From positions 124,001 through 188,000 of the forward strand of contig NZ_DS483477.1 of assembly GCF_000154285.1 (NCBI RefSeq): a stretch of 64,000 nt of DNA. Reading direction: 5' to 3'. The translations under genes were made by a program, and so were the position numbers. Source of the DNA: Amedibacillus dolichus DSM 3991. Its GTDB lineage: Bacteria > Bacillota_I > Bacilli_A > Erysipelotrichales > Erysipelotrichaceae. The notes under the pieces were generated by a model, which was not told the origin of the DNA, ran no database searches, and was given only the letters and a program-made list of their open reading frames with translations. Below are positions 8,816-26,828 of this stretch, piece after piece; within the stretch, counting starts at the first letter, position 1, and each line of letters begins with the position of its first letter.

Positions 8816-8837
8816 ATATAGTTTCTTTTGGAATATG

Positions 8838-8888
8838 AAAAAGTGGAAGGTATTCAGCGTAGTTAGTGCTGGTTCAATCCACTTTTTA
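8838..8888. terminator. Bidirectional stem-loop terminator
   Basis: AAAAAGTGG (8838-8846) pairs with CCACTTTTT (8879-8887). The T-run on the plus side and the A-run on the opposite side allow termination in both directions. It lies just past the stop of the minus-strand deacylase gene and after the IS66 remnant. Confidence 0.65.
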
Positions 8889-8895
8889 TTAACGC

Positions 8896-9369: not shown

Positions 9370-9468
9370 AAAATCACCATAAAAAGTATATCACAAAACA
9401 CGTAATGGATAACTTCAAATTTTATCTTTGAGATGCTATAATGTTGCTGGTTAAAAGGGTGATGCTAG

Positions 9469-10359
9469 ATGATAAAAGCAATTGCGATGGATATGGACGG
9501 TACATTGCTGAATTCCAATGATGAAATCATGCCGCAAACCAAACAAACACTTATTGCATTAGAAAAGCAAGGGGTTCGTTTGGTATTATCAAGTGGCAGA
9601 AGCTATCGGCGCTTGATGAAATATGCCAAGGAATTGGAAATGGATCGTTATGGTGGATATTTGGTAGAGGTCAATGGAATTGCACTTTATGATGTTAAGC
9701 AAGATCAACGTAAACGATTGGCTAGCTTCTCTTTGTCGGAATGCAAAGATTTATTTGCCTACTTCAAGAATAAAGGCATGGAAGTTATCGGAAATATGGA
9801 CGATGGTTTGCTTTGTTATATGACAGAAGAAATTTATGAATATAAGAAGCATTATCGCAAGGAACATAAGATACCAAAGGATTTTCCATGGACGGCAGGT
9901 GCTTTTTCGGTTTTATCCGATATGCGTGAAGGGTATCCACACCAGCGTTATATCCAAGATGAAAGTGAAATTGATGTGATTTTCAATAAGATATGCGTAA
10001 CACATTTCGATTCGCAAAGAGTAGCTGCGATAATGGAACAGGCAAAACATGATTTTAAGGACAGCTATTGGTTGGGACTTACAACAAAGCGATGGCTGGA
10101 GGTCATGCCTAAGGGAGTTACCAAAGCAAGTGGCTTATCTGCCTTTTGTGAAGCAAGCGGTATTACCTTTGATGAGATATTGGCCTTTGGTGATGGTGAA
10201 AATGATATTGCGATGCTTGATGCTTGTGGCAAAGCGATTGCCATGGAAAATGCTTTGGATAGTGTCAAGAAGCATGCGGATTTTGTTACCGCAACGAACA
10301 ATGATGAAGGGATAGCAAAGGGGATTGCCTATTTTCGGGAGGAATTTATATGCGATTAA
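9469..10359 (+). CDS. Cof-type HAD-superfamily phosphatase
   Basis: The 296-residue protein has all four HAD motifs: DMDGTLLNS (nucleophile Asp at residue 8), SSGRSYRR (motif II), a lysine in the GVTKASGL segment (motif III) and FGDGENDIAMLDACG (motif IV). The large cap between motifs II and III identifies the Cof/YkrA C2B subfamily, which dephosphorylates small phosphometabolites. Its ATG follows an AGGGTGATG site; a TATAAT-like -10 lies about 30 bases upstream. It overlaps the next gene by ten bases. Confidence 0.92.
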   Translation: MIKAIAMDMDGTLLNSNDEIMPQTKQTLIALEKQGVRLVLSSGRSYRRLMKYAKELEMDRYGGYLVEVNGIALYDVKQDQRKRLASFSLSECKDLFAYFKNKGMEVIGNMDDGLLCYMTEEIYEYKKHYRKEHKIPKDFPWTAGAFSVLSDMREGYPHQRYIQDESEIDVIFNKICVTHFDSQRVAAIMEQAKHDFKDSYWLGLTTKRWLEVMPKGVTKASGLSAFCEASGITFDEILAFGDGENDIAMLDACGKAIAMENALDSVKKHADFVTATNNDEGIAKGIAYFREEFICD

Positions 10360-10724
10360 CAGGCTTAAATGCAGAAGATGTACTTGCAAGTGCCAAGCAA
10401 ATGTTTCCGGGGAAATACATTGAGCTTACGACTTGTGATTTGTTTTTAGCAGATATAGAAGCCGGCGAAATTCAAATCGAAGGAATTGATCACCCATTGT
10501 ATGTCAGCACCCATTACGCTTATGAAAATCGTATCGTAAATGGGAATCCGACACGCTACAAGGTGGAGTTAACGGCAATCTATGTCAAAGATAATCGCTA
10601 TGATGTCATCTATGACAGTACACAGTCTTATCATATTGCTTATGAGGAGCAGGGGGTTCAATTTGTTCGTTATGATAAGTTACAGGATTTTTTAAAGCCA
10701 TATATAAAAAAGCAAGACAGCTGA
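10350..10724 (+). CDS. Hypothetical protein, 124 residues
   Basis: I do not recognise this family. The protein is soluble, acidic in the first half and rich in aromatic beta-strand-like stretches (YKVELTAIYVK, YDVIYDSTQSYHIAYEEQ), with no cysteine cluster, signal peptide or membrane segment. GGGAGGA lies just before its ATG inside the 3' end of the HAD phosphatase gene, a ten-base overlap, so the two are co-translated. A role tied to that phosphatase is possible but unsupported by motifs. Confidence 0.7.
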   Translation: MRLTGLNAEDVLASAKQMFPGKYIELTTCDLFLADIEAGEIQIEGIDHPLYVSTHYAYENRIVNGNPTRYKVELTAIYVKDNRYDVIYDSTQSYHIAYEEQGVQFVRYDKLQDFLKPYIKKQDS

Positions 10725-10730
10725 CAAAAT

Positions 10731-10865
10731 TTGACAACTTTTGAAAGCAAATAACGATAGAATAAGAAAGGCAGCAGTTGCCACATACAGATACTTCCCT
10801 CATCTGTATGCAACGTCATTCTATCCCGAATCGAGATGAAGCCCTTGAAAGAGGGCTTTATTTCG
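10731..10865 (+). ncRNA. Candidate small RNA with own promoter and terminator
   Basis: A TTGACA (10731-10736) lies about 17 bases before a weak -10. About 100 nt follow, containing a perfect 9-bp inverted repeat (CATACAGAT...ATCTGTATG, 10783-10809) and a rho-independent terminator, AAGCCCT-TGAAAG-AGGGCTT plus a T-rich tail (10839-10865). The helicase gene downstream has a separate promoter at 10879-10907, so the unit need not be its leader. No start codon with a ribosome-binding site is present. It does not match the SRP, 6S or tmRNA cores I know. The simpler alternative is a long 3' UTR of the upstream gene. Confidence 0.4.
10839..10865 (+). terminator. Rho-independent terminator
   Basis: Seven-base stem AAGCCCT/AGGGCTT with loop TGAAAG, followed by TATTTCGTTTT. 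Ends the candidate small RNA and/or the 9469-10724 operon. Confidence 0.75.
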
Positions 10866-10878
10866 TTTTGGAAAGTGA

Positions 10879-10907
10879 TTGACGCTATCTTGGCTGTGTG
10901 GTAAACT
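10879..10907 (+). promoter_or_regulatory. Sigma-A-type promoter of the DEAD-box helicase gene
   Basis: TTGACG (10879-10884) and TAAACT (10902-10907) are separated by exactly 17 bases, about 40 bases upstream of the helicase ATG. Confidence 0.65.
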
Positions 10908-10946
10908 AAACAAGTTATTTTATAAACAAAAAGAAAGCAGGTAACA

Positions 10947-12665
10947 ATGACAACATTTAATGAATTACATATCAGTGAAGCGATTTTGCGTGCGGTAAGC
11001 GAAATGGGCTATGAACAAGCAACGGAAATTCAGGCAAAAGCCATTCCCTATATTATGGAAGGAAAAGATGTACTGGGAAGAAGCAACACCGGTACCGGAA
11101 AAACTGCCGCCTTCGGTATTCCGGCAATAGAAATGGTACAGCCGCAGGACAAATATGCGAATGCCTTGATTATTTGTCCTACCAGAGAGCTGGTAACTCA
11201 AGTCGCAATGGAATTGCGTAAGTTTTCCAAATATAAGGAAGGCGTGAAAATCGTTCCGATTTACGGCGGACAGCCGATTGAACGTCAAATTCAATTATTA
11301 AAGCGTGGCTGTGGGATTGTAGTAGGAACACCGGGACGAATCATGGATCATTTGCGTCGTAGAACGCTAAAGCTATCCGATATTCGAATGGTTATTTTAG
11401 ATGAAGCAGACGAGATGCTAAATATGGGCTTTAAAGAGGATATTGAAGAGATTTTATCTTTGATGCCAAGTGAGCGCAGCTATCAAACGATTTTATTCTC
11501 TGCCACATGGCCAAGTGAAATCATGCGAATTGCCAAAGAATTTCAAAACGATCCGGTAACGGTTGAAATCAAATCTGCACAGCGTACCATTGATACGGTA
11601 GAGCAGCTCTATTATGAGGTTCCGCGTGGAAAGAAAGCCAATGCCTTAAGGGTATTGTTGAATCACTATGATCCTGAGCTATGTATGATTTTTGCGAATA
11701 CGAAAAAAATGGTAGATGAGCTACAAGGCGAATTGAATAAGCATGATATCAAGGCTTGCGCATTGCATGGTGATATGAAGCAAGAATTTCGAAGTCGTGT
11801 CATGGAGCAGTTTCGAAGCGGCAGTATGCCAATCTTAATTGCGACCGATGTTGCAGCTCGTGGTATTGATGTTGATGATGTCGATTTGGTCATTAACTTT
11901 GATATTCCCCAAGATAATGAGTATTATATCCATCGCATCGGACGAACCGGTCGTGCGGGGAAAAAAGGCTTGGCCATTACGTTGATTAGCGGAGGCAGAC
12001 AGCGAAGTGAATTAAAGAATATCATGCGTTATACGAAAACCAACATTAAGCATCATGCCCTTCCGACTTCAGCACAAATGCAGGCGCATAACCGCAAAGC
12101 ATATATTGAAGGTGTGAAGCTGGCTTGCGATGAAGGAGTTACTGATGAAAGCATGGAAATCGCTAACGAATTGTTGGCGGAAGGAATTGCGGTGGAAAAT
12201 ATTATCTCTGCTTTAATTTCTATGACTTATAAAAACGAAATTATTGATATTGAAGAAGAGGAGCATGTGAAACGCTATGCGGCTGACTTTGAGGCAGTTA
12301 CCCTGAAATTCAGCATTGGTAAGCAAGATGGTGTAAAAACCGGTAATATCGTTGCGGCAATTAGTGAGGAGTGTGGAATTTCTTCAAAGGCAATCGGTCG
12401 TATTGATGTGCGTTCCAATTTCTCATTGGTTGATGTCGATGCGGCAAAGGTCGATTTGGTATTAAGCAATATGCAGCGTGCGCATATTCGCGGCAGAGAA
12501 GTAAGTGTAGAAATCGATCATGCTCCTAAGCGAAAAAATGCCGGTAAGGAAAAAAATACTCGTAACAAGATGAAAAATGAAAAAAACAGAAAACGTCGTG
12601 ATGAGCGTAAAAAACGAAATACAACAGGACGAGAAGGAAAACGTAAAAAGGTGAAGAAAGGATAG
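10947..12665 (+). CDS. DEAD-box ATP-dependent RNA helicase with DbpA-type RNA-binding domain
   Basis: The 572-residue protein carries the helicase motifs in order: Q-motif region FNELHISEAILRAVSEMGY, SNTGTGKTAAF (Walker A), PTRELVTQ, GTPGRI, LDEADEMLNMGF (DEAD box), FSATWP, and in the second RecA lobe ATDVAARGIDVDDV and HRIGRTGRAGKKG. Residues about 445-520 resemble the DbpA RNA-binding (RRM-like) domain, followed by a Lys/Arg-rich tail. This layout is that of CshA/DeaD/DbpA-like helicases acting in ribosome assembly or mRNA turnover and cold adaptation. The stop codon lies in the loop of its terminator. Confidence 0.95.
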   Translation: MTTFNELHISEAILRAVSEMGYEQATEIQAKAIPYIMEGKDVLGRSNTGTGKTAAFGIPAIEMVQPQDKYANALIICPTRELVTQVAMELRKFSKYKEGVKIVPIYGGQPIERQIQLLKRGCGIVVGTPGRIMDHLRRRTLKLSDIRMVILDEADEMLNMGFKEDIEEILSLMPSERSYQTILFSATWPSEIMRIAKEFQNDPVTVEIKSAQRTIDTVEQLYYEVPRGKKANALRVLLNHYDPELCMIFANTKKMVDELQGELNKHDIKACALHGDMKQEFRSRVMEQFRSGSMPILIATDVAARGIDVDDVDLVINFDIPQDNEYYIHRIGRTGRAGKKGLAITLISGGRQRSELKNIMRYTKTNIKHHALPTSAQMQAHNRKAYIEGVKLACDEGVTDESMEIANELLAEGIAVENIISALISMTYKNEIIDIEEEEHVKRYAADFEAVTLKFSIGKQDGVKTGNIVAAISEECGISSKAIGRIDVRSNFSLVDVDAAKVDLVLSNMQRAHIRGREVSVEIDHAPKRKNAGKEKNTRNKMKNEKNRKRRDERKKRNTTGREGKRKKVKKG

Positions 12666-12680
12666 CTTTCTTCCTTTTTT
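12653..12680 (+). terminator. Rho-independent terminator overlapping the helicase stop codon
   Basis: GAAGAAAG (12653-12660) pairs with CTTTCTTC (12666-12673), with loop GATAG containing the TAG stop, then CTTTTTT. Confidence 0.75.
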
Positions 12681-12692
12681 ATGCTTTTGAGA

Positions 12693-12718
12693 TAAAAAAG
12701 CTGCAATTATGCAGCCTT
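12693..12718 (-). terminator. Terminator of the MscS gene
   Basis: On the minus strand GGCTGCATAATTGCAGC is followed by six Ts, a short stem-loop seven bases past the MscS stop codon. Confidence 0.7.
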
Positions 12719-12724
12719 GGTTTA

Positions 12725-13585
12725 TTAAATTTCTTCTTTCTTATATACAATGGTGCGATGTGGATATGGGAATTCGATTCCCTCGGCATCAAAGCGCTTC
12801 TTTATGGATATACGCAAATCGGAAAGCATTGCGAATCCCTCGGCCTTGCTTCGAGAGGGAATGGTAGCACGCAGTTGGATACCGCTATCCATAAAGTCAA
12901 TGACACGTATGACGATATTGGGCATATCGGCAGCAATTTCCTCAGCATTTCGTATATCCATATAATGCGGGTGCTTTTCTGCTTCCTCACGAATAATTTG
13001 CATGGCTTTATCTAAGTCGCTTTCATAGCTGATTTGTAAGAAAAGAAAGTTGGCATTGGAGGAGCTTAAGCTTATATTCTCCAATACCGCTTTATTCATT
13101 ACACTGTTGGGAATGAGGATGCGTGTATTTTCGTATGTTTGTATGACGGTATGACGTAAGGAAATATCAACCACATAGCCTTCATACTCTCCATTATCCA
13201 CCTTGACAAGATCACCGATGTGAAACGGCTTGAAGGTAGAAATCAGAATACCATTGACCATATTGCCCAAGCTTTCTTGCGCTGCCAAACCGAAAACAAC
13301 CGCTAAAATACCGGCACTTCCCCATAACTTGCCAAGAATAGAATCAAATGGCTTAAACAAAGAAAGGCAGGCATAGGACGCTAGTGTATAAATTACAATA
13401 CGCACCATGCGCATGATAAAGGCTTCATTAGAAAATTGCTTGCGCTTGACGTAGCGTTGGATCATACGTCTTAAAATATAGGCAATGCCTAAAAACAAAA
13501 GGATCATAAGAATGGAATTAAATAAACCATAGGTAAAAAAATCCTCTCGTCCAAATGCATTGATAGAATCGATCATAGAACTCAT
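12725..13585 (-). CDS. mscS: Small-conductance mechanosensitive channel, MscS family
   Basis: The 286-residue protein has an N-terminal membrane region (segments near residues 20-40, 60-80 and 90-110) with the pore-lining helix GLAAQESLGNMVNGILI, typical of MscS TM3. The cytoplasmic beta domain follows (FHIGDLVKVDNGEYEGYVVDISLRHT). It would release solutes during hypo-osmotic shock. The start chosen is ATG 13585, six bases after AGAGGTGA; an in-frame GTG at 13594 overlaps that site and is less likely. Convergent with the helicase gene; each has its own terminator. Confidence 0.9.
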   Translation of the reverse strand: MSSMIDSINAFGREDFFTYGLFNSILMILLFLGIAYILRRMIQRYVKRKQFSNEAFIMRMVRIVIYTLASYACLSLFKPFDSILGKLWGSAGILAVVFGLAAQESLGNMVNGILISTFKPFHIGDLVKVDNGEYEGYVVDISLRHTVIQTYENTRILIPNSVMNKAVLENISLSSSNANFLFLQISYESDLDKAMQIIREEAEKHPHYMDIRNAEEIAADMPNIVIRVIDFMDSGIQLRATIPSRSKAEGFAMLSDLRISIKKRFDAEGIEFPYPHRTIVYKKEEI

Positions 13586-13727
13586 ACCATTCACCTCTTA
13601 TAGTATTATACATGATTATTATACAGGAAAAGTGGGATATCATTGAAGAAATAAGTGGAATTATGTGATATTGTTGAATATAAAAAAAATTCCGATATAA
13701 TACTTTTAAAGTAAGAAGGTGAATAGA

Positions 13728-14174
13728 ATGCGAGTTCGCAGCAAAATCTTAAAAATAAGGAATCTTCCGAAAACAGGAGAAAAACGCGGAGAAATTAAAA
13801 CAAAGCCCTATGGTTTGTTACTGACGTTTTTGGTCATCGGTATTGCGCTGCTGTTTACAAGCTATTATGTATTTGGAATCGTGCTGGTAGGTCTTTTCCT
13901 TTATTACCTCTTATTTATCAAGAATACGATACTGGTAGAATTTTTTGATACCTATGCAGTGTTTTATTTAAACAATGGGAAAGATGAATGCTATGTATTG
14001 TTTTGGAATGATGTCAAAGACTGGCAACTGGAAAAAGCAAAACGAGATATGGATATCTTGAATATTGTTTTAAAAGATGATACGACGATTGCTTTAAAAT
14101 GCTTAGGTCGTAAAAAAATATGCAAATATTTTAAACAATATGCGGCAGTAGGTGCACATAAAGAACAAGCATGA
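13728..14174 (+). CDS. Hypothetical two-TM membrane protein
   Basis: The 148-residue protein is basic at the N-terminus, then has two closely spaced hydrophobic stretches (about residues 35-65) and a soluble C-terminal half rich in beta-like strands (TILVEFFDTYAVFYLNNG, CYVLFWNDVKDW). That resembles small membrane-anchored PH-like proteins, but I cannot assign a family with confidence. ATG 13728 is preceded by AAGAAGGTG; an upstream in-frame GTG lies inside that site and is rejected. A TATAAT-like -10 lies just upstream (13694-13701). Confidence 0.65.
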   Translation: MRVRSKILKIRNLPKTGEKRGEIKTKPYGLLLTFLVIGIALLFTSYYVFGIVLVGLFLYYLLFIKNTILVEFFDTYAVFYLNNGKDECYVLFWNDVKDWQLEKAKRDMDILNIVLKDDTTIALKCLGRKKICKYFKQYAAVGAHKEQA

Positions 14175-14231
14175 CTGCCTTTTTCTTTGGGAATATGATA
14201 TAATTTTGAAAGATATGAGGAGTGATTGACA

Positions 14232-15059
14232 ATGCAAACCATGCAGGTTGTTTTTTATCATACAAAGGATATTTTAAAGAAGCGTGGCTGGCGTATGTAT
14301 GCCGCTTTGTTTTTTGTTTCTATGTTTATTATGCTTTACACCGAGGGACTTCAGTTATTGATGGATACGGCAGGGACAGCGTATATCATTATATCGTTTA
14401 TTTGTTCCTTGTTGAATATGGTAATGATGGACACAGTGCTGTTCTTGTTTGTAAAAGCCATTCGCAAGCAAACCTTCGGCAAGGCGGATCTTGTTTATGC
14501 GTGTAAAAAAGCACCACTTATGATCATAGTCGGTTTTTTATTGGCAATGCTGCAAATTACCTTTTCACTGGTATGTTCGCTTTTCTTTCGCATACAATGG
14601 CTGTATTTGATTGTTTATGCATTGATTTATGCTTTCTTTACGATTTACAATGCTTTGGTTGCTTATGGAATTTATGACGGAGTCAATTTTTTACAGCTGT
14701 TTAGCGGTAGTTTGTATATTATGAAGGAACATGCCAAGGAGCTGCTTGTGGCAAGTATTTTCTTGATTTTATGGTATATGGCAGGACAGTTGCTTGTACC
14801 GAAGCTGACAGTAAGCATCTTAGGCTCTGCTTATTATGCGGGAGCAATTATTCCCGGGATTTTACGGGCCTTTTTCATCAGTCCGTTGGCAGTTGTGCAA
14901 ATTACGCTGTTGAATATGGTCTATTACAGTGTTGTTTATGTGTTGCTGTTACCGGTGTATTGCATAAGTGCGAGAGCTTATGAAAGTGAGCATTATATGT
15001 GTATGCCAAGTGGCACTCGATTTTTAGAGGAGGTGTGCTGTGATGAAAAAAATAAATGA
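14232..15059 (+). CDS. Multi-pass membrane protein of unknown function
   Basis: The 275-residue protein has about six hydrophobic segments and resembles integral membrane proteins of the glycerophosphoryl-diester-phosphodiesterase membrane-domain/DUF975 type in layout, without a motif I can name. ATG 14232 is nine bases after AGGAG; the in-frame TTG six bases earlier is too close to it. The 3' end overlaps the next gene, whose product has similar size and topology, so the two may be paralogous partners in one complex. Confidence 0.65.
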   Translation: MQTMQVVFYHTKDILKKRGWRMYAALFFVSMFIMLYTEGLQLLMDTAGTAYIIISFICSLLNMVMMDTVLFLFVKAIRKQTFGKADLVYACKKAPLMIIVGFLLAMLQITFSLVCSLFFRIQWLYLIVYALIYAFFTIYNALVAYGIYDGVNFLQLFSGSLYIMKEHAKELLVASIFLILWYMAGQLLVPKLTVSILGSAYYAGAIIPGILRAFFISPLAVVQITLLNMVYYSVVYVLLLPVYCISARAYESEHYMCMPSGTRFLEEVCCDEKNK

Positions 15060-15852
15060 ATTTTTAACTATGATTCACTTACAAGAAAAACCACTTAAGC
15101 TTTGGTTGTTGATCGTTATTCCCAGTGTAATTTACTGTGTTATGCTATCCTTTGTCCAAACATTGATGTATATGGGCGATCCACTGATTTATTATTCTGC
15201 TTTATATTTCTTGATTCTATGGTTTGGCTTTGTTTGGTTGATTGTCTTTTTTCAGTTTTTAAATAAAAAGCGCGGCAACACCATGACCTTAAGCATCAAG
15301 CGTTATCTGCTTCCGTATTTCGGTGTGCAGACGATCTTCTATATTTTGATGATGGGGTGTCATTATATAACGATGCAGATTGCCGGTGATTTAAGTAAGA
15401 ATTTCTTATTTTATATATTAACGGCATTGTGTATCCTCCTTACCCTTGCTTATCTTCCATGGCAGCTGTTTTGCTGTTTTGAAATTTTGGACGGTAAAAG
15501 AAATCCACTACGTATTTTGAAGGACGGATTGGTAAAGCTGGCAAAGCAATATCAGATTTGCTTCTATGCATTGATCTTATTGGCATTTGTGGCAGTAGTG
15601 TTTGCTTTCGGAAAGGAAATGCTATTTCATATACCGATGAGCTTTGTTCCGTATATGAGCGTGCACGATATCATGGTCAATGCCAATCCATTTGCAGATG
15701 GAATCGCTATGGCGGTCTATGCGTTTAAAGATGTCAGTCAATGGGGCAGTGTGCTGTATTCTCTTGTATACGGCATCATTATGTCTGTATTGCTTGTTGT
15801 ATATTATATGCTGATGGCATGTGCATACGATGAGGATATATGCATATCGTAG
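15043..15852 (+). CDS. Multi-pass membrane protein of unknown function
   Basis: The 269-residue protein has about six hydrophobic segments, a size and topology matching the gene just upstream, with which it overlaps by 17 bases. A strong GAGGAGG lies at 15028-15034. GTG 15040 or ATG 15043 could start translation; I chose the ATG. No catalytic motif is visible. Its stop is followed within 16 bases by a 43-codon frame with its own ribosome-binding site. Confidence 0.62.
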   Translation: MKKINEFLTMIHLQEKPLKLWLLIVIPSVIYCVMLSFVQTLMYMGDPLIYYSALYFLILWFGFVWLIVFFQFLNKKRGNTMTLSIKRYLLPYFGVQTIFYILMMGCHYITMQIAGDLSKNFLFYILTALCILLTLAYLPWQLFCCFEILDGKRNPLRILKDGLVKLAKQYQICFYALILLAFVAVVFAFGKEMLFHIPMSFVPYMSVHDIMVNANPFADGIAMAVYAFKDVSQWGSVLYSLVYGIIMSVLLVVYYMLMACAYDEDICIS

Positions 15853-15867
15853 CATAGGAGGGATTTG

Positions 15868-15999
15868 ATGGAGGTTGAATGCAATACCTATACGTTGTGC
15901 TTTTATTATCGTAAACAGGCAATCGCAGTACGAGTTCATGTCAGCAGCAAGCCTTCCAAAAGAGAAATACGAATTATGGTAGAGCCTTTGTTTTCATAA
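15868..15999 (+). CDS. Small hypothetical protein, 43 residues
   Basis: An ATG at 15868 sits five bases after GGAGGG (15857-15862) and opens a 43-codon frame ending in TAA at 15997-15999. The product is basic and soluble, with two cysteines near the N-terminus (VECNTYTLCFYY) and a Lys/Arg-rich second half ending IRIMVEPLFS. It is 15 bases after the preceding membrane-protein gene, so probably the last gene of that operon, and the terminator overlaps its 3' end. Unknown function; the good ribosome-binding site is the main support. Confidence 0.5.
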   Translation: MEVECNTYTLCFYYRKQAIAVRVHVSSKPSKREIRIMVEPLFS

Positions 16000-16020
16000 A
16001 TAAGGGCTTTTCTTTTTTTT
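15981..16020 (+). terminator. Terminator after the membrane-protein operon
   Basis: AGAGCCTT near 15981 can pair imperfectly with AAGGGCTTTT near 16001-16010, followed by a long T-run. It isolates the giant repeat gene from upstream transcription. Confidence 0.55.
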
Positions 16021-16025
16021 ATAAC

Positions 16026-16052
16026 ACAATTTCGTTGTGGGCTCATATACTA
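16026..16052 (+). promoter_or_regulatory. Sigma-K-like promoter of the giant repeat gene
   Basis: CATATACTA (16044-16052) fits the mother-cell sigma-K -10 pattern CATAnnnTA, and AC (16026-16027) lies 16 bases upstream, as in Bacillus sigma-K promoters. It would give a leader of about 40 nt before the ATG at 16098, with GAAGGAGG just ahead of it. No clear sigma-A pair is seen here. Short motifs like this also arise by chance in AT-rich DNA. Confidence 0.45.
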
Positions 16053-16097
16053 GAATGTATAAGAAAAGAATAGGCTTATATATGAAGGAGGATCAAA

Positions 16098-19000
16098 ATG
16101 AGCAAACACTTAACGAAAGTCTTTGCCGGCATGCCTCATGTAAGTTTTCTTGCAACGATTCCTACAGAGCCGCAAAAAGAATGCCCAAGCATCGACATTC
16201 TTGTGGAAGAGGTAGATGATGAGGGGAAGTATCATGATGAAAATACACCAATGTTTATCAAGCTGTGGGAAGCAACAGGAGAATGCAGGCAATATGAGCT
16301 TTCAATGCAACAGGGTTGTGGTCGTTTATGTATAGACGATTGTATGTGTCCTATACGAATACAGTTGGTTGATGCAGATGGAACAGCCATCGAAAAGATA
16401 ACTTACTATGTAAATGACGAAAAGCAGGAAGCTGATGCTGCAATCGTCCAAGGAGGGGAAGAAAAAAAGATTTGTGTACGCATGGTATACTGCCATGAAG
16501 CGTATGCCTCTCTTACCTTAACGAAAAGTTTGCGTCTTATTGATGGAACATGCTGTCAGCCACTCAACGATATGGAATTCTTTATACGTCTTACCCATAC
16601 CGATGGATCAAATTACTTCTTTACACTGCACGAAGAAAATCAATTTTGCGAGCAGATCCAAGGCTTGAAGGTGGGAGAATATCAAATTGAGGAGCGCACA
16701 AACGGAAGCTATCAACCTTGCTTTTATCTTGATGGCGAACCGCTTGTTTCAACCCAATGTTTCATGTTAACAAAGGGAGAGCATACAGTAGAAATCATCA
16801 ATGCGAAAGCGATGCACACCCAATTTCAAATATCGCGTTATGTGCGCAATGCTTATGGAGAACTTTGTAAGCCATATGGTGAAACTATAGAAATGTTGTT
16901 GATAAGTGAGCGAGGGCAAAACAGCCTATGCTTTTGTGATGAAAATGATTTCTGTGTGCAAATCCAAGGTCTTGATGCAGGCTGCTATGAGCTTTGTGAG
17001 CAAGCCATGGCATCAAACATCAGTTATTTGGTAAATGATGAGCCGGAAAGCAAGCGAGCTTGCATAGAGCTTTGTGAAGGAGGCTGTGATGATATCGTAG
17101 TAATTGAATCACCATGTGATAAGCAAGCACAGCCAAGTTTTTCCTCCCTTCGTATTTGTAAATACATTCGTAGTGGAGGCGGTCGCCTTGTACGTCCAAG
17201 TGAGGAATATCAATATAAAGTACAGGTAAGAGGCTGTGGTACCTGCGATGCCTTTTATCTAAATGCCAATAATAATTTCTGTGTGGACTTAGCAAATGTA
17301 TGTCCGGGAGAGTATTGCGTAGAGGAAATCGGTTGCGAGGACTTTGTTACAAGCTACAGCATTAATGGCGGCTTGGAAAAGACAAGTGCCGAATTTTGTT
17401 ATGATGGGGAGCATGGCATTTGTGTTTCGATTATCAACGAGGCAAAAAATCGTGGCAGTGTATGCATTAGCAAATATATCCGTGATGCACAGGGAAATTT
17501 ATTACAGCCAAGCAAAGACAGCGTCTTTCGCGCAACCCTCAGCTCCTATTTTATGCGTCAATGCTTTGAGCTGAAGGCTGAAAATAACTTTACGGTTTGT
17601 TTCGATGATTTACGTTTTGGCAGTTATGAAATACGTGAGGAAGTGCAGTGCGACTTTGAAACCGGCTATCAGATTGATTGCGGCAGGCTGAAAAGCAACG
17701 GACGTTTTGTGATTGATAATTGCTTCGAGCATGAAGTAAAAATCATCAATGCCCTTCCATGCAGGGAAACATATTCTTTGCGTATATCCAAGTTTGTAGA
17801 AACATTGTCCGCTCAGCTGGTAAAACCGGCAGGTGATGAGGTATTCAAGGTTTGGGTGCATGGGGAAGATTTTTCCGAAACCTATTGCTTGAAGGCATCT
17901 AACAATTGGCAGCTTCAACTAGAGGGCTTGCGAGAAGGCTGCTATCAAGTGGAAGAGGTTGGCTGTGAAAACAACGATATCAGCTATATTGTAAACCATC
18001 AGCCTTGTAAGGAGGCATGTGTATGTTTGAAAAACTGTAATCAAGAGGTGGTTATTATCAATCATGCAGCAGAAATGGGAACCATTACACTAAAGGCAGT
18101 CGTAAAGAACTGTGATGGCGAAATCATTGAGCCACCATGCGATGCACGCTTTGAGGTGCTTGTAGAAGGAAAAGAAGGCTGTTATCAGGCATGCTTATGT
18201 AGGGATAATGATTGGTGCTTTGCGTTAGATGATGTATGTTGTGGCAAGTATCGCATCATTCAAAAGGATAATTTCGGATATCGCGTCAGCTATTATATAC
18301 AAGGAAGGCTTGACAGTTTCGGAAAGCTGCGCATGGGCAGCGAGGACGAAAGTGTTGTTATCATCAACGAGGAAAACGATTGCAGCGGAAATGTCATCGT
18401 TACGAAATATGTCGAAAACGATCAAGGACAGCTTGTGCTTCCAACGACAGATAGCACCTATTGTTTTGCGCTTTGCAATGATGCCGGTATGCAGGAGTAT
18501 ACATTGGATCAACAAAACGATTTCTGTGTATATTTTGATGATTTACCAAAGGGTGCGTATGAAATCGTAGAACAAGGTGGTGGAGAACAGGTACGCTATC
18601 AAATTGATGGAAGTGAGGTCGAAAGAGCTTGCTTCACGCTTGCTAAGCAGGATATTCATATTGATATCATCAATATGGAGAAAACCGCAAAGCCACTGCA
18701 TATTTGTAAGAAGATCTGCGATGGAAAGCAGTGGAAGCTGCCAGATGCTTCCCAATGCTATCACATTTTGTTGAAGGGGAAAAAGACCCATGAAATCTAC
18801 GAACTGAATGCGGAAAACAATTTTGCGATTTCACTTTGTGATTTAAGAAAACAACACTATGAGATAAAGGAGCTGCATGCGCAAGGAAATGTAAGCTATT
18901 ATGTGAACGGAAGCTGCCAAGAGGACGGCTATTTCTTATACAACGGGGAAGAAACGGAAATTGAAATTGTGAATGAGGAGCACGCTTTGGCCGGTATTGA

Positions 19001-22000
19001 GATTCGTAAAATGGTTTGTGATGCGTATGGCGATTTGCGTCGTCCATCATCGCATGATACTTTTGAGGTCATGATCGAAAGTGAAAGTTTTAAGCAAAAG
19101 TTAACGCTATGTGATGAAAATGATTTTACGATCCATTTATTTGATATGCCAAGAGATCATTATGAAATTTGGGAATGCGGAAATCATGCGGTGCGCTATC
19201 TCATCAACGATTTGCCATACGAGCGGGCATGCATTGATGTCGGTGATGAAGATGTGTATGTAACCATTGTAAATTATCCATGTCCAAGAGGTAGCTTGCA
19301 TTTTATTGCGGATACCAATTGTGCAACTGATCCACTCTGTTTTCAAGTACAAAGCAAAGCCTTTTGTGAAACTATTACACTTGATGCTACACATCATTTT
19401 CAAGCAAGTCTATGCGACTTACAGCCGGATAGCTACTTGGTAGAGGGTGATGATGATATTTGCTTTACGATGCATGGACAATGCTTCGATCAGCACGTAT
19501 GTATTGAATTGCAGGGAGAAGATGTTGAGGTCTGTGTGATGCGGAAAGAAAAGCGTCAAAGTGAGCTTTTTGTTCAGAAGTGGCTGCAAGATGATGAAGG
19601 CAGAAGGAAACCTTTCCATGATGCCTGCTATGACATGGTGCTTTGTGCAAAGGATTGGGAAAAGAGCTTTCAGCTATGTGCCAATCAAGATTTCAAAGCT
19701 TGTTTTATGCTTGAGGAAGGCAGCTATGAGCTAAAGGAATGTAATGGACAGGCTAAATATTGCATCAATCAGGGAGAATTGCGTAAAAAGGCTTGCTTTG
19801 AGGCATGCGGTGATCCGATTTCTATTGATGTAATCAATGAAATGCCAAAGGCTGTCCTGCATCTTGGAGTATGTGTGCAAGCATGTGATGGGACAATGGA
19901 AAAGCCGCAAGGCGATCTTAGCTTTCTAATGGAAATTACGAAGCAAGGACAGAAAATAAAGCGTGTGGTGCTAGATGCGGAAAATGATTGGTCAAAATCC
20001 ATCGAGCTTCCTTATGGAGATTATGAAATCACCCAACTTCCACATGAGCAATTCGCTGGGGTGCAGTATATGGTTTGTGAAGAGCTTTGTGAGCAAGCCT
20101 GTATTCATTTAGAAGCAGATATGTGTATTACCGGTATCAACGAAGCTATGTGTGCTATGGGCAGTATTGAAATCAGTAAGCTGATCAAAGAGCAGGATCG
20201 CTATCACTATCCGCCACAAGACGCACAATACTATGTTCAACTCATCGGTGAGCAGGAAACCATACGCACTCTTTTATATGCGGATAATGGTTTTTATGCC
20301 AATATCTCAAACTTAGCAAGGGGAACCTATGAGGTCGTAGAGGAGAATAGCGATGAAACAACAGCCTATATTGTAAACAATGCTGCTTTAAATAAGCAGG
20401 GGATCGTTCATGTAGCGGATAATGCCAATACGGTGCATATCATCAATACCGTAGAGGAAAAGATGGGGAGTATCGTGTTACAAAAAAAGCTTCGTGAAAA
20501 CGATCAGCTGCATACGCCGCAAGATAGTGATCGCTTTACTTTTTTGATTAGTCGCCCGGGGTATCGCCAAACGGTTAGCTTAGATGCCGCAAATCAGTGG
20601 CAAACGGTTTTAAGTGATTTGGCAAGTGGGGATTATGTAATCAGCGAAATTGATACTGATGCAGATGTAAGCTTTATTATTGATGGAGGAAGTGAGGTCA
20701 ATCGAGCGGTTGTGCATGTCGATGGAACCTCGCATCAGGTGCAAATCATCAACGAATATAAAAAAGTGGTAAATGGCTTACGGATTCAAAAACGTATGCG
20801 AGATAGTGAAGGAAATTTCCATACACCTAATGAGGATATGCGTATTCGCTTGCGTGTTACCAGCCCCGGCTTTTACGAGCTTGTAACCTTGAGTAAGGAA
20901 AATGATTGGCAGATTGTTTTTGAAGATCTGAATACCGGTTGGTATGTTGTTGATGAGATTGATGCACAGGGCAAGGTAAGTTATATTGCCGATCATGGAA
21001 GTGAAAAGGATCATGGTGTCATTTTGGTGCATGATGGTATGCACAGTATGGAGGTTATCAATGCAAGTGAGCAGCAAAGCCTAGGTAGCTTACAGATTGA
21101 AAAAATGATTCGGACCGCACAGGGTTTAAAGCGTCCGCAAGATGACTTTACCGCTCTTATCTATGTGCATAAACCGGGCTTTCAGCGGGTAATTACGCTA
21201 GATAAGGAAAATCAATGGAGTGCTAAAATTGAGGATTTAGCCAATGGCTTGTATGCCATAGAGGAAATCGGAGCGACGCAAAGGGTGTCCTATATTGTCA
21301 ATGGTGAAAAAGAGAGCGAGCATGCGGAAATAAGTGTAGAGAATAATGCGCATCATGTTTTGGTGATCAATGAAGAAAGCAATGGCGACGCTTCCTTATC
21401 CATTCGCAAGCGCATTCGTGCCGCAAATGGGAATTTGGTTGCACCGCAGTTGGAAGAGAGCTTTCAAGTGGAAGTTTATCAAGAAGCACAGCTATTTCAA
21501 ACACTTACCTTAAATCGTCAAAACCATTGGCAACAAACCCTAGAGCATTTGCCACAGGGAAGCTATGAGATAAAAGAAGTTAGCGATTTGGATTATGATG
21601 TCAGCTATATCCTTGATGATGGGCAGGAGCAAGAGCGTGCGGTAGTAGAGCTGGATCATGGAGCACATCGTGTTCAAATTTTAAATTCACGCATGCGGGA
21701 TAGCGGTCATTTGACGCTTACAAAGCATATTCAAAATGCCGATGGAAGCATAATGAAACCGGCAGATGGAGATGAATTTGTCGTACGTGTTTTCAGTGAA
21801 GAATATGAACGACTTGTGCCGCTTAATAACGGAAATGATTTTGAAGCATTGGTGGAAGGCTTGCCAGATGGACAATATGGTATTTTGGAAATTCAAAATG
21901 CGGCATATTTGACAACCTATCGCATTAACAACGGTCCGCAGCAGGCAAGTGCGACCATTGGTATGGCACCCAATGTCAGTCATCATGTTGATGTGATCAA

Positions 22001-22697
22001 CGAACTGCGTGGCAATCGCAATACGATTGAAGTATTTAAATATATGCTAGATGCAGACGGCAATTATCTGCCGCCAACCGCTCCTGATGTATATTCCTTT
22101 ACGATTACCGGCTTAGATAACGATGTATCAGAAACGTATGAGTTGAATGTGGAAAACAGCTGGCATCAAAGTATTCGAACCTTGCCAAGTGGGCGTTATC
22201 AGGTGCAAGAAAGCGGTGGTTCGCCATATTCGGTGAAGTATTTGATTAACAGTGCACAGCTAATGGAGGAAGCAATCTTTGAGGCAACTGCCGGATCTAC
22301 GCAGGTCATCGGAATCATCAATACACAGGCGAATGATGGTAAAGGAACCTTGTCGATTTCAAAGCGTATTCGTGATGCCAACGGTTCTTTATCTGTTCCG
22401 CAAAACGGAGAGGTTTTTACGGTCGTGCTATCCGGTGGGGATTATCAACAAACGATTACGTTAGAACCGAATAATAATTATCAATTTACGGTGTATGATT
22501 TACCATTTGGATCATATCAGGTAGGTGAGGTTACCAGCGATTACGAAGTCAGCTATCGGGCAAATGATGGAAGTGAGTCCGCACAAGGAAACATTGAAAT
22601 CAATGCAACGGCAGTGAATACGATGCTGATTATCAATACACCGATAGCATCTGTGATAAAAAGAAGCTCTACACCAATACGAGTCGTAATTGAATAG
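16098..22697 (+). CDS. Giant tandem Cna-B-like repeat protein, Cys-rich N-terminal part
   Basis: The 2199-residue protein has a divergent N-terminal unit (about 1-137) and 20 tandem units of about 100 residues. A typical unit opens with a strand like ISKYIRDAQG, has a mid-unit NNF/NDW motif, then GxYxIxE, then a YxIN/YIV strand, and closes with VxIIN. This is the Cna-B (prealbumin-like) pattern, in which the opening-strand Lys and closing Asn form an isopeptide bond assisted by the Glu of YxIxE. I see the Lys/Glu/Asn set in 16 of 20 units. Units 3 and 11 lack both Lys and Asn; 7 and 13 are otherwise degenerate. About 90 cysteines lie before residue 1353; none follow. There is no signal peptide, TM segment or LPXTG motif. 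The strong AAGGAGG site supports ATG 16098. Function unknown; a structural or spore-surface role is my hypothesis. Confidence 0.8.
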   Translation: MSKHLTKVFAGMPHVSFLATIPTEPQKECPSIDILVEEVDDEGKYHDENTPMFIKLWEATGECRQYELSMQQGCGRLCIDDCMCPIRIQLVDADGTAIEKITYYVNDEKQEADAAIVQGGEEKKICVRMVYCHEAYASLTLTKSLRLIDGTCCQPLNDMEFFIRLTHTDGSNYFFTLHEENQFCEQIQGLKVGEYQIEERTNGSYQPCFYLDGEPLVSTQCFMLTKGEHTVEIINAKAMHTQFQISRYVRNAYGELCKPYGETIEMLLISERGQNSLCFCDENDFCVQIQGLDAGCYELCEQAMASNISYLVNDEPESKRACIELCEGGCDDIVVIESPCDKQAQPSFSSLRICKYIRSGGGRLVRPSEEYQYKVQVRGCGTCDAFYLNANNNFCVDLANVCPGEYCVEEIGCEDFVTSYSINGGLEKTSAEFCYDGEHGICVSIINEAKNRGSVCISKYIRDAQGNLLQPSKDSVFRATLSSYFMRQCFELKAENNFTVCFDDLRFGSYEIREEVQCDFETGYQIDCGRLKSNGRFVIDNCFEHEVKIINALPCRETYSLRISKFVETLSAQLVKPAGDEVFKVWVHGEDFSETYCLKASNNWQLQLEGLREGCYQVEEVGCENNDISYIVNHQPCKEACVCLKNCNQEVVIINHAAEMGTITLKAVVKNCDGEIIEPPCDARFEVLVEGKEGCYQACLCRDNDWCFALDDVCCGKYRIIQKDNFGYRVSYYIQGRLDSFGKLRMGSEDESVVIINEENDCSGNVIVTKYVENDQGQLVLPTTDSTYCFALCNDAGMQEYTLDQQNDFCVYFDDLPKGAYEIVEQGGGEQVRYQIDGSEVERACFTLAKQDIHIDIINMEKTAKPLHICKKICDGKQWKLPDASQCYHILLKGKKTHEIYELNAENNFAISLCDLRKQHYEIKELHAQGNVSYYVNGSCQEDGYFLYNGEETEIEIVNEEHALAGIEIRKMVCDAYGDLRRPSSHDTFEVMIESESFKQKLTLCDENDFTIHLFDMPRDHYEIWECGNHAVRYLINDLPYERACIDVGDEDVYVTIVNYPCPRGSLHFIADTNCATDPLCFQVQSKAFCETITLDATHHFQASLCDLQPDSYLVEGDDDICFTMHGQCFDQHVCIELQGEDVEVCVMRKEKRQSELFVQKWLQDDEGRRKPFHDACYDMVLCAKDWEKSFQLCANQDFKACFMLEEGSYELKECNGQAKYCINQGELRKKACFEACGDPISIDVINEMPKAVLHLGVCVQACDGTMEKPQGDLSFLMEITKQGQKIKRVVLDAENDWSKSIELPYGDYEITQLPHEQFAGVQYMVCEELCEQACIHLEADMCITGINEAMCAMGSIEISKLIKEQDRYHYPPQDAQYYVQLIGEQETIRTLLYADNGFYANISNLARGTYEVVEENSDETTAYIVNNAALNKQGIVHVADNANTVHIINTVEEKMGSIVLQKKLRENDQLHTPQDSDRFTFLISRPGYRQTVSLDAANQWQTVLSDLASGDYVISEIDTDADVSFIIDGGSEVNRAVVHVDGTSHQVQIINEYKKVVNGLRIQKRMRDSEGNFHTPNEDMRIRLRVTSPGFYELVTLSKENDWQIVFEDLNTGWYVVDEIDAQGKVSYIADHGSEKDHGVILVHDGMHSMEVINASEQQSLGSLQIEKMIRTAQGLKRPQDDFTALIYVHKPGFQRVITLDKENQWSAKIEDLANGLYAIEEIGATQRVSYIVNGEKESEHAEISVENNAHHVLVINEESNGDASLSIRKRIRAANGNLVAPQLEESFQVEVYQEAQLFQTLTLNRQNHWQQTLEHLPQGSYEIKEVSDLDYDVSYILDDGQEQERAVVELDHGAHRVQILNSRMRDSGHLTLTKHIQNADGSIMKPADGDEFVVRVFSEEYERLVPLNNGNDFEALVEGLPDGQYGILEIQNAAYLTTYRINNGPQQASATIGMAPNVSHHVDVINELRGNRNTIEVFKYMLDADGNYLPPTAPDVYSFTITGLDNDVSETYELNVENSWHQSIRTLPSGRYQVQESGGSPYSVKYLINSAQLMEEAIFEATAGSTQVIGIINTQANDGKGTLSISKRIRDANGSLSVPQNGEVFTVVLSGGDYQQTITLEPNNNYQFTVYDLPFGSYQVGEVTSDYEVSYRANDGSESAQGNIEINATAVNTMLIINTPIASVIKRSSTPIRVVIE

Positions 22698-23321: not shown

Positions 23322-26300
23322 ATGACTAAGAAATTTATGTCAATGGACGGTAATACAGCCGCTGCTCATTGCGCGTATGCTTTTACCGAACTATCTGCGA
23401 TTTATCCAATTACTCCATCTTCACCAATGGCTGAAGTTGTGGATCAATGGGCTACCCAAGGTCGTAAAAATATTTTCGGCAGTGTGGTAAAGGTTGCGGA
23501 GCTTCAATCAGAGGGTGGAGCTGCCGGTGCCGTACATGGTGCTTTACAGGCAGGAACACTGGCTACTACATTTACAGCATCTCAGGGCTTGCTGTTGATG
23601 ATTCCAAACATTTACAAAATGGTTGGTGAATGCTTGCCGGGTGTTATCCACGTAGCTGCTCGTGCACTTGCAACCAGAGCATTGAATATCTTCGGTGATC
23701 ATGAAGATGTTTATTCCGTACGTCAGTCCGGTGTTTGTATGCTGGCTAGCCACTCCGTACAGGAAGCTATGGACTTAGCTGGTGTTGCACATTTGGCTGC
23801 ATTAAAGGGAAGTGTACCGTTTATTCACTTCTTCGATGGATTCCGTACATCTCACGAAATTCAGAAAATCGAGGTTTTGGATACAGAAGTATTCAAAGAT
23901 TTAATTGATAAGGAAGCACTTGCAAATTTCCGCAAGAATGCTTTGAACCCACATACAAATCCGGTTACACGCGGTGGTGCGGAAAACGATGATATCTTCT
24001 TCCAGGGTATGGAAGCTCGTAACAAGCACTTTGATGCAATTCCGGATATCGTTGCCGGTTATATGAAGGAAATCTCAAAAATTACTGGACGTGAATACGC
24101 TCCATTTACATACTATGGTGCAAGCGATGCAGAACGTGTTATCGTTGCAATGGGTTCTGTAACCGAAGCTGCTAAGGAAACGATCGATGCACTTACAGCT
24201 GCCGGAGAAAAGGTTGGTATGATCAAGGTTCACTTGTATCGTCCATTCTCTGTAAAATATTTACTTGCAGTTCTTCCAGAAACAGTGAAGAAAATTGCGG
24301 TACTTGACCGTACAAAAGAAACCGGTTCTTTAGGTGAACCACTATATTTGGATATCCTTTCTGCATTGAAAGATAAAGATATCGAAATCATCGGCGGACG
24401 TTATGGTCTAGGATCTAAGGATACACAGCCATATCACATCAAAGCCGTATTTGATGAATTGAAGAAAGATGTTATGAAGAACTCTTTCACAATCGGTATC
24501 AACGATGATGTTACAAATCTAAGTTTAGATGCGGATTCTTCATTCACAGTTCCGGCAGACTACACAAGCTGCTTGTTCTGGGGACTTGGATCTGATGGTA
24601 CGGTATCTGCTAACAAATCAACTGTTAAGATTATCGGTGATAACACAGATCAGTATGCACAGGCTTACTTTGCTTATGACTCTAAAAAAGCCGGTGGTGT
24701 TACACGTTCTCACTTGCGTTTTGGAAACTCTCCAATCCGTTCAACTTACTACATCGACAACGCTGACTTCATCTCTTGTTCATTAGATGCTTACATGTTC
24801 AAATATGACATGGTAAGAAACTTGAAAAAAGGCGGTTCTTTCTTGTTGAATACAACATTCTCTAAAGAAGAAATCGTTGAACATATGCCAAATCGTATGA
24901 AGGCACAGTTGGCGAAGAAGGAAGCTAAGCTTTATATCATCAACGCTACAAAGATTGCTGCTGAAATCGGTATGGGACGTAGAACAAATACCATTCTACA
25001 GTCTGCATTCTTTGCATTGAACGAACAGATCATGCCTTATGATACTGCAGTTGATCTAATGAAGGCTGCTGCTAAGAAATCTTACTCTAAGAAGGGTGAT
25101 GCTGTTGTTGAATTGAACTACAAGGCAATCGATGCCGGTAAAGCTGGAATTGAAGAGGTTGCTATCGACCCAACATGGGCTGAACTTCCATACGATGCAG
25201 CTCGTACACTAACTGGTGATGAGTATTTCGATAACCATGTAGCTGTTATCAACGGTCTTGAAGGTTATGATATGCCGGTATCTGCATTTGCCGGAGATTT
25301 CCTACTTGATGGATCTATCCGCAACAATGTTGCATTTAATGAAAAACGTACCATCGCTGTTCAGGTACCTACTTGGCATGCAGAAAACTGTATCCAGTGT
25401 GGTATTTGTAGCTTTGTTTGTCCACATGCTACCATTCGTCCGTTCTTATTGACAGATGAAGAAGTTGCTAACGCTCCTATGGAATTTGAAACTCTACAGG
25501 CTATGGGCAAGGGTGTAGAAAACTTGAAATATCGTATTCAGGTTACTCCTGCTAACTGTGTAGGCTGTGGCTTATGTGCTGTTGAATGTCCTGGTAAAGC
25601 AGGTAATAAGGCACTTGAAATGGTTGATATCAATGAAAAACTTGGTGAAGAACCACTTGCTGATTACTTGTTCAAGCAGGTTGAATACAAGACAGAGTAT
25701 TTCCCTAAAGATACTGTAAAGGGTTCTCAGTTCTTGATGCCTTACTTTGAAGTATCCGGTTCTTGTCCGGGTTGTGGAGAAACTCCATACTACAAGCTTG
25801 TTTCTCAGTTATTCGGTAGAGATATGTTAGTAGCAAACGCAACAGGCTGCTCAATGATTTACTGTTCATCTACACCATCTACTCCATTCGTAAATGATGC
25901 TAATGGCGAAGGTGTTGCTTGGGCAAACTCTTTGTTTGAAGATAATGCTGAATTTGGATATGGTATGGCACTTGCTCAGAACTACAAAGAAGCTAGAATC
26001 TTGAAAACAATGGAGGACAACATGGAAAATGTTGAACCTGCATTGAAAGATGCATTCGCTAAATATATTGAAGTACACGGTGATCGTGAAGCAGAAAGAG
26101 AAGTTGCTCCAACAATTAAAGAACTTGCTGCTAAATCTGATATCGCTGATGTAAAAGAACTTGCTGAAGAAGATCTTATCAGCAAATCTGTATGGATCGT
26201 CGGTGGAGACGGTTGGGCTTATGACATCGGTTACGGTGGATTAGACCACGTATTGGCAAATGACTTGAACGTTAATGTACTTGTACTTGATACAGAAGTT

Positions 26301-26828
26301 TACTCTAACACAGGTGGTCAGTCATCTAAATCTAGCCAGGCTGCTTCTATTGCGAAGTTTGCTGCCGGTGGTAAGACAACTGCTAAGAAAGATCTTGGAC
26401 AGATTGCTATGGCATACGGTCATGTATATGTAGCATCTATCTCTATGGGTGCTAACAAGGCTCAGACATTGAAGGCTATCAAGGAAGCAGAAAGCTATAA
26501 CGGACCATCTTTGATTCTTGCTTACTCTCCATGTGCTGAACACGGTATCAAGGGCGGACTTGCTAATCACCAGAAAACACAGGCAAAAGCTGTTGAGTGT
26601 GGTTACCTAGACTTGTATCGTTACGATCCAAGAAAAGAAACTCCTTTGACAATCGATTCTAAGGAACCTGACTTCGATAAGATGTTAGACTTCATGATGA
26701 GCGAAACTCGTTATAGCCAGTTACCTAAGTTGAAGGGTGAAACTGCATACGAAATGTTCGAGAAAACAAAGAAAGACGCTATTAAACGTCATAAGAGATT
26801 ATTAGCTATCGCTAAAGAAGATATTTAA
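23322..26828 (+). CDS. nifJ: Pyruvate:ferredoxin (flavodoxin) oxidoreductase
   Basis: The 1168-residue single-chain PFOR oxidises pyruvate and CoA to acetyl-CoA and CO2, reducing ferredoxin; it is a hallmark of anaerobic fermentation. Domains in order: N-terminal pyrimidine-binding part (YPITPSSPMAE), CoA and transketolase-like domains, a two-cluster ferredoxin domain with CIQCGICSFVCP (about 687) and CVGCGLCAVECP (about 746), then CPGCGETPYYKL and the TPP-binding GGDGWAYDIGYGG. Length is normal for the family. Codon choice (many gct, ctt, aac) is more biased than in neighbours, as expected for high expression. A TATAAT at 23285-23290 and AGGAGG precede the ATG. Monocistronic, with its own terminator. 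Confidence 0.97.
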   Translation: MTKKFMSMDGNTAAAHCAYAFTELSAIYPITPSSPMAEVVDQWATQGRKNIFGSVVKVAELQSEGGAAGAVHGALQAGTLATTFTASQGLLLMIPNIYKMVGECLPGVIHVAARALATRALNIFGDHEDVYSVRQSGVCMLASHSVQEAMDLAGVAHLAALKGSVPFIHFFDGFRTSHEIQKIEVLDTEVFKDLIDKEALANFRKNALNPHTNPVTRGGAENDDIFFQGMEARNKHFDAIPDIVAGYMKEISKITGREYAPFTYYGASDAERVIVAMGSVTEAAKETIDALTAAGEKVGMIKVHLYRPFSVKYLLAVLPETVKKIAVLDRTKETGSLGEPLYLDILSALKDKDIEIIGGRYGLGSKDTQPYHIKAVFDELKKDVMKNSFTIGINDDVTNLSLDADSSFTVPADYTSCLFWGLGSDGTVSANKSTVKIIGDNTDQYAQAYFAYDSKKAGGVTRSHLRFGNSPIRSTYYIDNADFISCSLDAYMFKYDMVRNLKKGGSFLLNTTFSKEEIVEHMPNRMKAQLAKKEAKLYIINATKIAAEIGMGRRTNTILQSAFFALNEQIMPYDTAVDLMKAAAKKSYSKKGDAVVELNYKAIDAGKAGIEEVAIDPTWAELPYDAARTLTGDEYFDNHVAVINGLEGYDMPVSAFAGDFLLDGSIRNNVAFNEKRTIAVQVPTWHAENCIQCGICSFVCPHATIRPFLLTDEEVANAPMEFETLQAMGKGVENLKYRIQVTPANCVGCGLCAVECPGKAGNKALEMVDINEKLGEEPLADYLFKQVEYKTEYFPKDTVKGSQFLMPYFEVSGSCPGCGETPYYKLVSQLFGRDMLVANATGCSMIYCSSTPSTPFVNDANGEGVAWANSLFEDNAEFGYGMALAQNYKEARILKTMEDNMENVEPALKDAFAKYIEVHGDREAEREVAPTIKELAAKSDIADVKELAEEDLISKSVWIVGGDGWAYDIGYGGLDHVLANDLNVNVLVLDTEVYSNTGGQSSKSSQAASIAKFAAGGKTTAKKDLGQIAMAYGHVYVASISMGANKAQTLKAIKEAESYNGPSLILAYSPCAEHGIKGGLANHQKTQAKAVECGYLDLYRYDPRKETPLTIDSKEPDFDKMLDFMMSETRYSQLPKLKGETAYEMFEKTKKDAIKRHKRLLAIAKEDI

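Follow-up and report, generated by a model that had tools for sequence, protein, structure and literature searches.

The window analysed here is a 64,000-nucleotide stretch of the Amedibacillus dolichus DSM 3991 genome, and the subject of this report is a single open reading frame (ORF) within it that encodes a giant protein assembled from repeated CnaB-type units (Table 1). The ORF has its own ribosome-binding site and is preceded by a predicted promoter, and since a terminator-like hairpin lies directly before this promoter the giant gene is probably transcribed on its own. A Pfam scan of the whole protein identified three families above their curated cut-offs, SpaA (PF17802, 49.1 vs 23.1 bits), DUF5979 (PF19407, 40.2 vs 25 bits) and Cna_B (PF05738, 26 vs 22.3 bits), all of which are CnaB-type families. 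Units were delimited with an iterated unit hidden Markov model (HMM), which found 21 of them: a divergent unit at amino acids (aa) 28–132, counted here as unit 1, and a further 20 up to aa 2183.

A preliminary description of this DNA, made from the letters alone, had proposed a 2199-residue chain of Cna-B-like units in which 20 repeats follow a divergent first unit and sixteen carry the Lys, Glu and Asn of an isopeptide triad, and each of these points is borne out, with the K-E-N triad complete in 16/21 units. Those without the full triad are units 1 (V-D-M), 3 (R-E-E), 7 (A-Q-N), 11 (A-gap-R) and 13 (V-Q-N). The absence of both Lys and Asn from units 3 and 11 had been remarked on correctly; units 7 and 13, where Lys and Glu are gone and the Asn is retained, had gone unmentioned. 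The units share a mean identity of 23%, and the ortholog in genome G014 (G and L numbers are our handles for genomes and loci) aligns colinearly from end to end at 33% identity. For these reasons, and because members of the family are found in independent assemblies, a recent tandem expansion or an assembly artefact was rejected.

Table 1. Features of the giant gene and its surroundings. Positions are those of the window unless a locus is given.
Feature	Position	Strand	Remarks
Terminator-like hairpin	15981..16010	+	Just upstream of promoter
Predicted mother-cell-type promoter	16026..16061	+	-35 AC at 16026-16027, 16-bp spacer, -10 CATATACT at 16044-16051, conserved AGAATGTATA downstream
Ribosome-binding site	16086..16091	+	Sequence AGGAGG
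Giant CnaB-unit protein ORF	16098..22697	+	ATG start, 2199 aa; without signal peptide, transmembrane segment or LPXTG
N-terminal 27 aa	16098..16178	+	aa 1-25 with pLDDT <50 in model; not a signal peptide
Unit 1, aa 28-132	16179..16493	+	Divergent CnaB-like domain, V-D-M, no triad
Units 2-13, aa 137-1351	16506..20150	+	Cys-rich; triad incomplete in units 3, 7, 11, 13
Unit 7, aa 661-760	18078..18377	+	A-Q-N in place of K-E-N; equivalent unit x-Q-N in several other genera
Unit 13, aa 1252-1351	19851..20150	+	V-Q-N; equivalent unit A-Q-N in several other genera
Units 14-21, aa 1355-2183	20160..22646	+	Cys-free; K-E-N in 8/8
C-terminal tail, aa 2184-2199	22647..22694	+	Ends IRVVIE
MscS-type channel	12725..13594	-	Flanking gene, conserved in several genera
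Three small membrane-protein genes	13719..15852	+	No Pfam family; similar upstream neighbours recur in several genera
Pyruvate:ferredoxin oxidoreductase (nifJ)	23322..26828	+	Downstream of giant gene in many members and of decayed copy
Split giant-gene remnant	L012:6327-8181 (G012)		108-aa ORF then 507-aa ORF, beside nifJ
Sortase pilus locus, same genome	L016 (G000:C5:100001-120000), 7239-17243	-	Conventional

Unit 18 (aa 1765–1865) was modelled with 46 units as the alignment, which gave a mean predicted local distance difference test (pLDDT) score of 97 and a predicted template modelling (pTM) score of 0.88. The model is closest to isopeptide-type pilin domains, with PitA at the top (Z 11.7) and GBS52, BcpA, RrgB, Cpa and CNA-B1 also among the hits (Z 8.5–11.7). 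VIA-align pairs residues 1/101 of the model with 627/719 of 1D2O, 604/717 of 4BUG and 343/430 of 2X9Z. Counting from these aligned ends, which assumes a gap-free stretch between the end and the residue, K7/N99 of unit 18 land on Lys633/Asn717 (1D2O), Lys610/Asn715 (4BUG) and Lys349/Asn428 (2X9Z), and these are the bonded residues in a global survey of isopeptides (PMC12617251). In the model the unit Lys and Asn therefore match the bonded residues of CNA-B1, Cpa and RrgB, provided that the alignment is gapless close to its two ends. A second model gave the same correspondence with 2X9Z for unit 2, and showed unit 1 folding as a CnaB-like sandwich without a triad. Prediction of the unit structure was the first check set by the preliminary description, and its outcome, a CnaB fold with a consistent placement of the triad, does not refute the assignment. 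The units of the window protein are predicted to be CnaB/transthyretin-like β-sandwiches, 16 of the 21 with a Lys in the first strand, an Asn in the last strand and a catalytic Glu, and we infer that isopeptide bonds may form within these 16.

Relatives were sought with a two-sequence profile over 272 genomes and over 395 genomes drawn from the class; a first scan of genome contigs with the giant sequence alone had returned no relative. Sixteen giants, including that of the window, were found in seven genera of Erysipelotrichaceae, and none was found outside this family among the 395 genomes. The complete ORFs, as called, encode 1749–2436 aa, and that of G143 ends at a contig edge after 1537 aa. 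A phage or plasmid origin was rejected, as neither the phage nor the plasmid collection gave a tblastn match.

Across the 319 units of these 16 proteins, the Lys, Glu and Asn are kept or lost jointly. With each genus represented by a single genome (146 units), K goes with E at an odds ratio of 650 (p=7e-28) and with N at an odds ratio of 53 (p=1e-17), in tests that assume independent units, an assumption that holds only in part. The coordinated loss of triad residues, first noticed for Lys and Asn in the window, is far stronger over the whole family than in the window protein alone. Loss of the Lys is often coupled with a change of Glu to Gln (x-Q-N), as would be expected if a buried Lys-Glu charge pair were neutralised. 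Units of this kind recur at the equivalents of units 7 and 13 in several genera (6 and 12 in proteins whose unit 1 escaped detection), which suggests that triad loss at these positions is old.

The window protein contains 92 Cys (4.2% of its residues), all before aa 1353 with the last at aa 1352, and Cys are concentrated in the N-terminal 60% across the family. Within units, some pairs of Cys columns co-occur and none is dominant. The idea that a disulfide replaces the isopeptide was rejected, since within the N-terminal 1350 aa the units with a triad hold slightly more Cys than those without (5.6 vs 4.8, p=0.025).

Export signals were assessed by hydropathy and a sequence scan. The most hydrophobic 19-residue segment of the window protein scores 1.34 and its best N-terminal 10-residue segment 1.27. 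For all members the best N-terminal 10 residues lie between 0.6 and 1.8, compared with 3.23 for the signal peptide of a pilus tip protein from the same genome, in what is a simple hydropathy comparison. No member has an LPXTG within its C-terminal 80 aa or a transmembrane-like stretch, in agreement with the preliminary description, and a sortase-type secreted protein was rejected since no member has a signal peptide or LPXTG. We also considered that vegetative cells might make the protein in their cytoplasm from an ordinary sigma-A promoter and expose it by lysis or by an unknown route, as an adhesin or filament released non-classically. CnaB stalks are indeed typical of fibrillar adhesins and pilins (PMC12617251). 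However, the Pfam scan of the window protein found no adhesion domain, no member has a secretion or anchoring signal, and the host is already equipped with a standard sortase pilus operon, encoding a 2575-aa tip protein (signal peptide, Cna_B, LPXTG), a 478-aa backbone pilin and a sortase. Together with the sporulation link set out below, this makes an adhesin unlikely.

The gene spoIVA encodes the spore-coat assembly ATPase. It was detected above cut-off in 14/16 giant carriers vs 22/256 non-carriers (Fisher p=4e-12), and the two negative carriers are the incomplete genomes G143 (66%) and G239 (86%). Scored by genus the figures are 7/7 vs 10/52 (p=6e-5), a comparison that is fairer than genome counts and is not phylogenetically corrected. 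The giant thus appears, on gene content, to be restricted to spore formers, and so strong a link to spoIVA argues against an adhesin of vegetative cells. Carriers include Merdibacter massiliensis and Longicatena caecimuris DSM 29481, whose nifJ is 92% identical to that of the window's genome; L. caecimuris came from feces that had been treated with ethanol and has been classified among the spore-formers (PMC8340488). A split remnant of the giant gene is present in G012, where Spo0A was found and spoIVA was not detected. Its 507-aa ORF contains five units, none with a complete triad by inspection, and the split copy looks like decay after loss of sporulation. Several genomes also have cotJ-like operons ending in a Mn-catalase-type CotJC (L157–L164), which independently indicates that spore-coat components are encoded there. 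A very Cys-rich 245-aa ORF, preceded by CATAAGAT at −50, lies upstream of the cotJ-like genes in G145 (L157:497) and may encode another coat protein.

In each of the 15 members for which upstream DNA is available, the giant gene is preceded by a CATATA(C/A)T box. Its distance from the start codon as called is −25 to −58, which shifts with the start call, and it is followed by a conserved AGAATGT-like stretch. The strict box is present in 14/15 members vs 0/138 other ORFs of the same loci (loose CATAnnnT, 15/138) and is unique in the window's genome. The CA before TATA is invariant in the giant-gene boxes, no sigma-70-type site was called at the giant-gene promoter, and AC stands at −35 with 16-bp spacing in 5/7 genera, represented by six genomes with that of the window among them. 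The −10 element is common to sigma-E and sigma-K in C. difficile, where AC at −35 marks sigma-K; the sigK promoter P2 has CATATAAT with AC (PMC3789822). As a control, the regions upstream of spoIVA were examined in 14 genomes (G000, G014 and 12 others). CATAnnnT was found shortly upstream of the start in 12/14. Most of these 12 boxes have AATG or AGTG after them, a feature shared with the giants, and the box of G014 reads CATACATTAGAATG; of the other two regions, that of G145 (L172) gave no match and that of G035 (L181) was anchored at a wrong start and is uninformative. CATAnnnT was also found at several cotJ operons, whose starts are uncertain. These sequences suggest that the giant-gene promoter is of the mother-cell sigma-K/sigma-E type, and for the window gene its own −35 AC favours sigma-K over sigma-E. 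This likeness to the spoIVA promoter is a further argument against a vegetative adhesin.

The preliminary description had raised the possibility of an intracellular or non-classically released isopeptide filament. The CnaB units, the triad and the lack of an export signal on which it drew all stand; it had left the location open, whereas the mother-cell-type promoter, the spoIVA-restricted relatives, the Cys richness and the decayed copy in a spoIVA-less relative point to sporulation. Judged from these sequence features, the giant is most likely part of the outer shell of the spore rather than a cell-surface adhesin, and we consider it probable that the mother cell makes it as a structural component of the coat or exosporium, where isopeptide bonds would give stiffness and Cys would provide cross-links.

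A number of points weigh against this assignment. A sequence profile of the units gave no match to solved structures. The sigma-K-like AC is absent from two of the seven genera, with TC at 16 bp in the Merdibacter genus and GC at 17 bp in the largest genus. Because TATACT or TATAAT lies within the −10 box, a sigma-A promoter, as a vegetative adhesin would use, is conceivable. YabG was sought as another sporulation-promoter control, with no hit in ten of these genomes. All seven genera are from a single family and may go back to one acquisition, so the genome counts are not independent. Around ten other spoIVA-bearing genera have no giant gene, and the protein would therefore not be a core coat protein but an accessory spore component at most. 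Finally, many triads have been lost in members G064, G065 and G238–G240, which implies that the bonds are not needed everywhere. The same losses would suit the view that the triad is a relic, with the CnaB fold kept and the isopeptide bonds absent or unimportant in a protein made in the cytoplasm. We regard this as improbable, because in the window protein and several other genera most units retain the whole triad despite divergence to about 33% identity, the three residues co-vary strongly, and CnaB bonds are autocatalytic (PMC12617251).

During sporulation, proteins synthesised in the cytoplasm of the mother cell are deposited on the spore with no need of a signal peptide, and the giant, if made there, would need none. 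We propose that in a sporulating cell the giant gene would be transcribed from its own promoter by RNA polymerase carrying sigma-K or sigma-E, both mother-cell sigma factors, and that the protein would be made in the mother-cell cytoplasm. Each intact unit would fold there as a CnaB sandwich, in which the buried first-strand Lys and last-strand Asn would join autocatalytically with help from the Glu, locking about 16 of the 21 units. In the orientation that we infer for the chain, the Cys-rich N-terminal 13 units would become disulfide-cross-linked in the coat or exosporium once conditions are oxidising, and the Cys-free C-terminal eight, all with a triad, would form the stiff rest of the chain. 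Lysis of the mother cell would then expose the protein together with the spore. A motif like MSKHL..HVSFLATI is common to the N-termini of several members, and endings akin to the IRVVIE of the window protein occur in others (LRIVIE, LKIVIE, IKIVIS); the N-terminal stretch or the C-terminal motif could be a docking element. Alternatively, the giant might act in sporulation and yet remain inside the mother cell, as a scaffold or filament during spore building, and never become part of the spore's surface; the promoter and the phyletic pattern tell of expression in the mother cell and not of where the protein ends up. The triads and Cys-richness, however, fit a durable extracellular layer, and spore surfaces are known to carry self-assembling proteins rich in Cys (PMC7333573); we give this alternative only a small chance.

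The MscS channel and small membrane proteins found upstream of the giant gene in the window occupy the same position in several genera. A functional partnership with the downstream nifJ was rejected and the arrangement taken as synteny, since about twenty other nifJ neighbourhoods have no giant gene and in most genomes of one genus the giant lies elsewhere. In G014 (L011) a 130-aa ORF directly upstream of the giant gene is a stand-alone Spo0A C-terminal DNA-binding domain. G035, in which no giant gene was detected, has a similar Spo0A-domain ORF ~5 kb upstream of nifJ.

Intramolecular isopeptide bonds are mainly found in exported pili and fibrillar adhesins (PMC12617251). If the proposed role is correct, this self-locking chemistry would also be used to harden spores, and gut Erysipelotrichaceae, in which such chains possibly form spore fibres, would have a first candidate for a spore-surface protein. 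A mass loss of 17 Da per intact unit, and none in x-Q-N units, is predicted. Literature searches found no published description of a giant CnaB isopeptide chain made for the spore, and publications on Erysipelotrichaceae and the exosporium held nothing about such a protein in title or abstract. CnaB domains, Cys-rich spore proteins and, as far as the citation in PMC12617251 indicates, isopeptides in spore-associated fibres (sporesilk) are each already known separately. That their combination here, a ~2200-residue mother-cell-made chain with isopeptide-locked CnaB units and a disulfide-linking Cys-rich half, represents a new class of spore-surface protein seems to us marginally better than an even prospect.

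The giant shares with the CnaB pilins and fibrillar adhesins of Gram-positive bacteria the fold, the first-strand Lys, the Glu in the GxYxIxE strand, the last-strand Asn and the long chain of repeats. Unlike them, it is Cys-rich, has a predicted mother-cell-type promoter, occurs only in spoIVA-bearing lineages apart from one decayed copy, and yielded no signal peptide, LPXTG or adhesion domain. With CsxA of Clostridium sporogenes, a Cys-rich self-assembling exosporium protein of the disulfide-linked type (PMC7333573), and with the exosporium proteins ExsY/CotY of Bacillus it has in common a high Cys content, restriction to spore formers and, presumably, mother-cell expression. This likeness is one of composition only. 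The giant differs in consisting of ~2200 aa of CnaB units with triads; the CsxA, ExsY and CotY families were not named in the Pfam scan of the window protein, and no dedicated homology test was made. The Ena fibres of the Bacillus cereus group are β-sandwich spore structures that are covalently cross-linked (PMC8619143), but Ena consists of small disulfide-linked subunits in a helix, whereas the giant is a single chain with predicted intramolecular isopeptides, and the Ena domain was not among its Pfam matches up to E=1. To judge from their citation in PMC12617251, the sporesilk fibres (Remaut, Sleutel and Sogues 2025) resemble the giant in bringing isopeptide chemistry into association with endospores.

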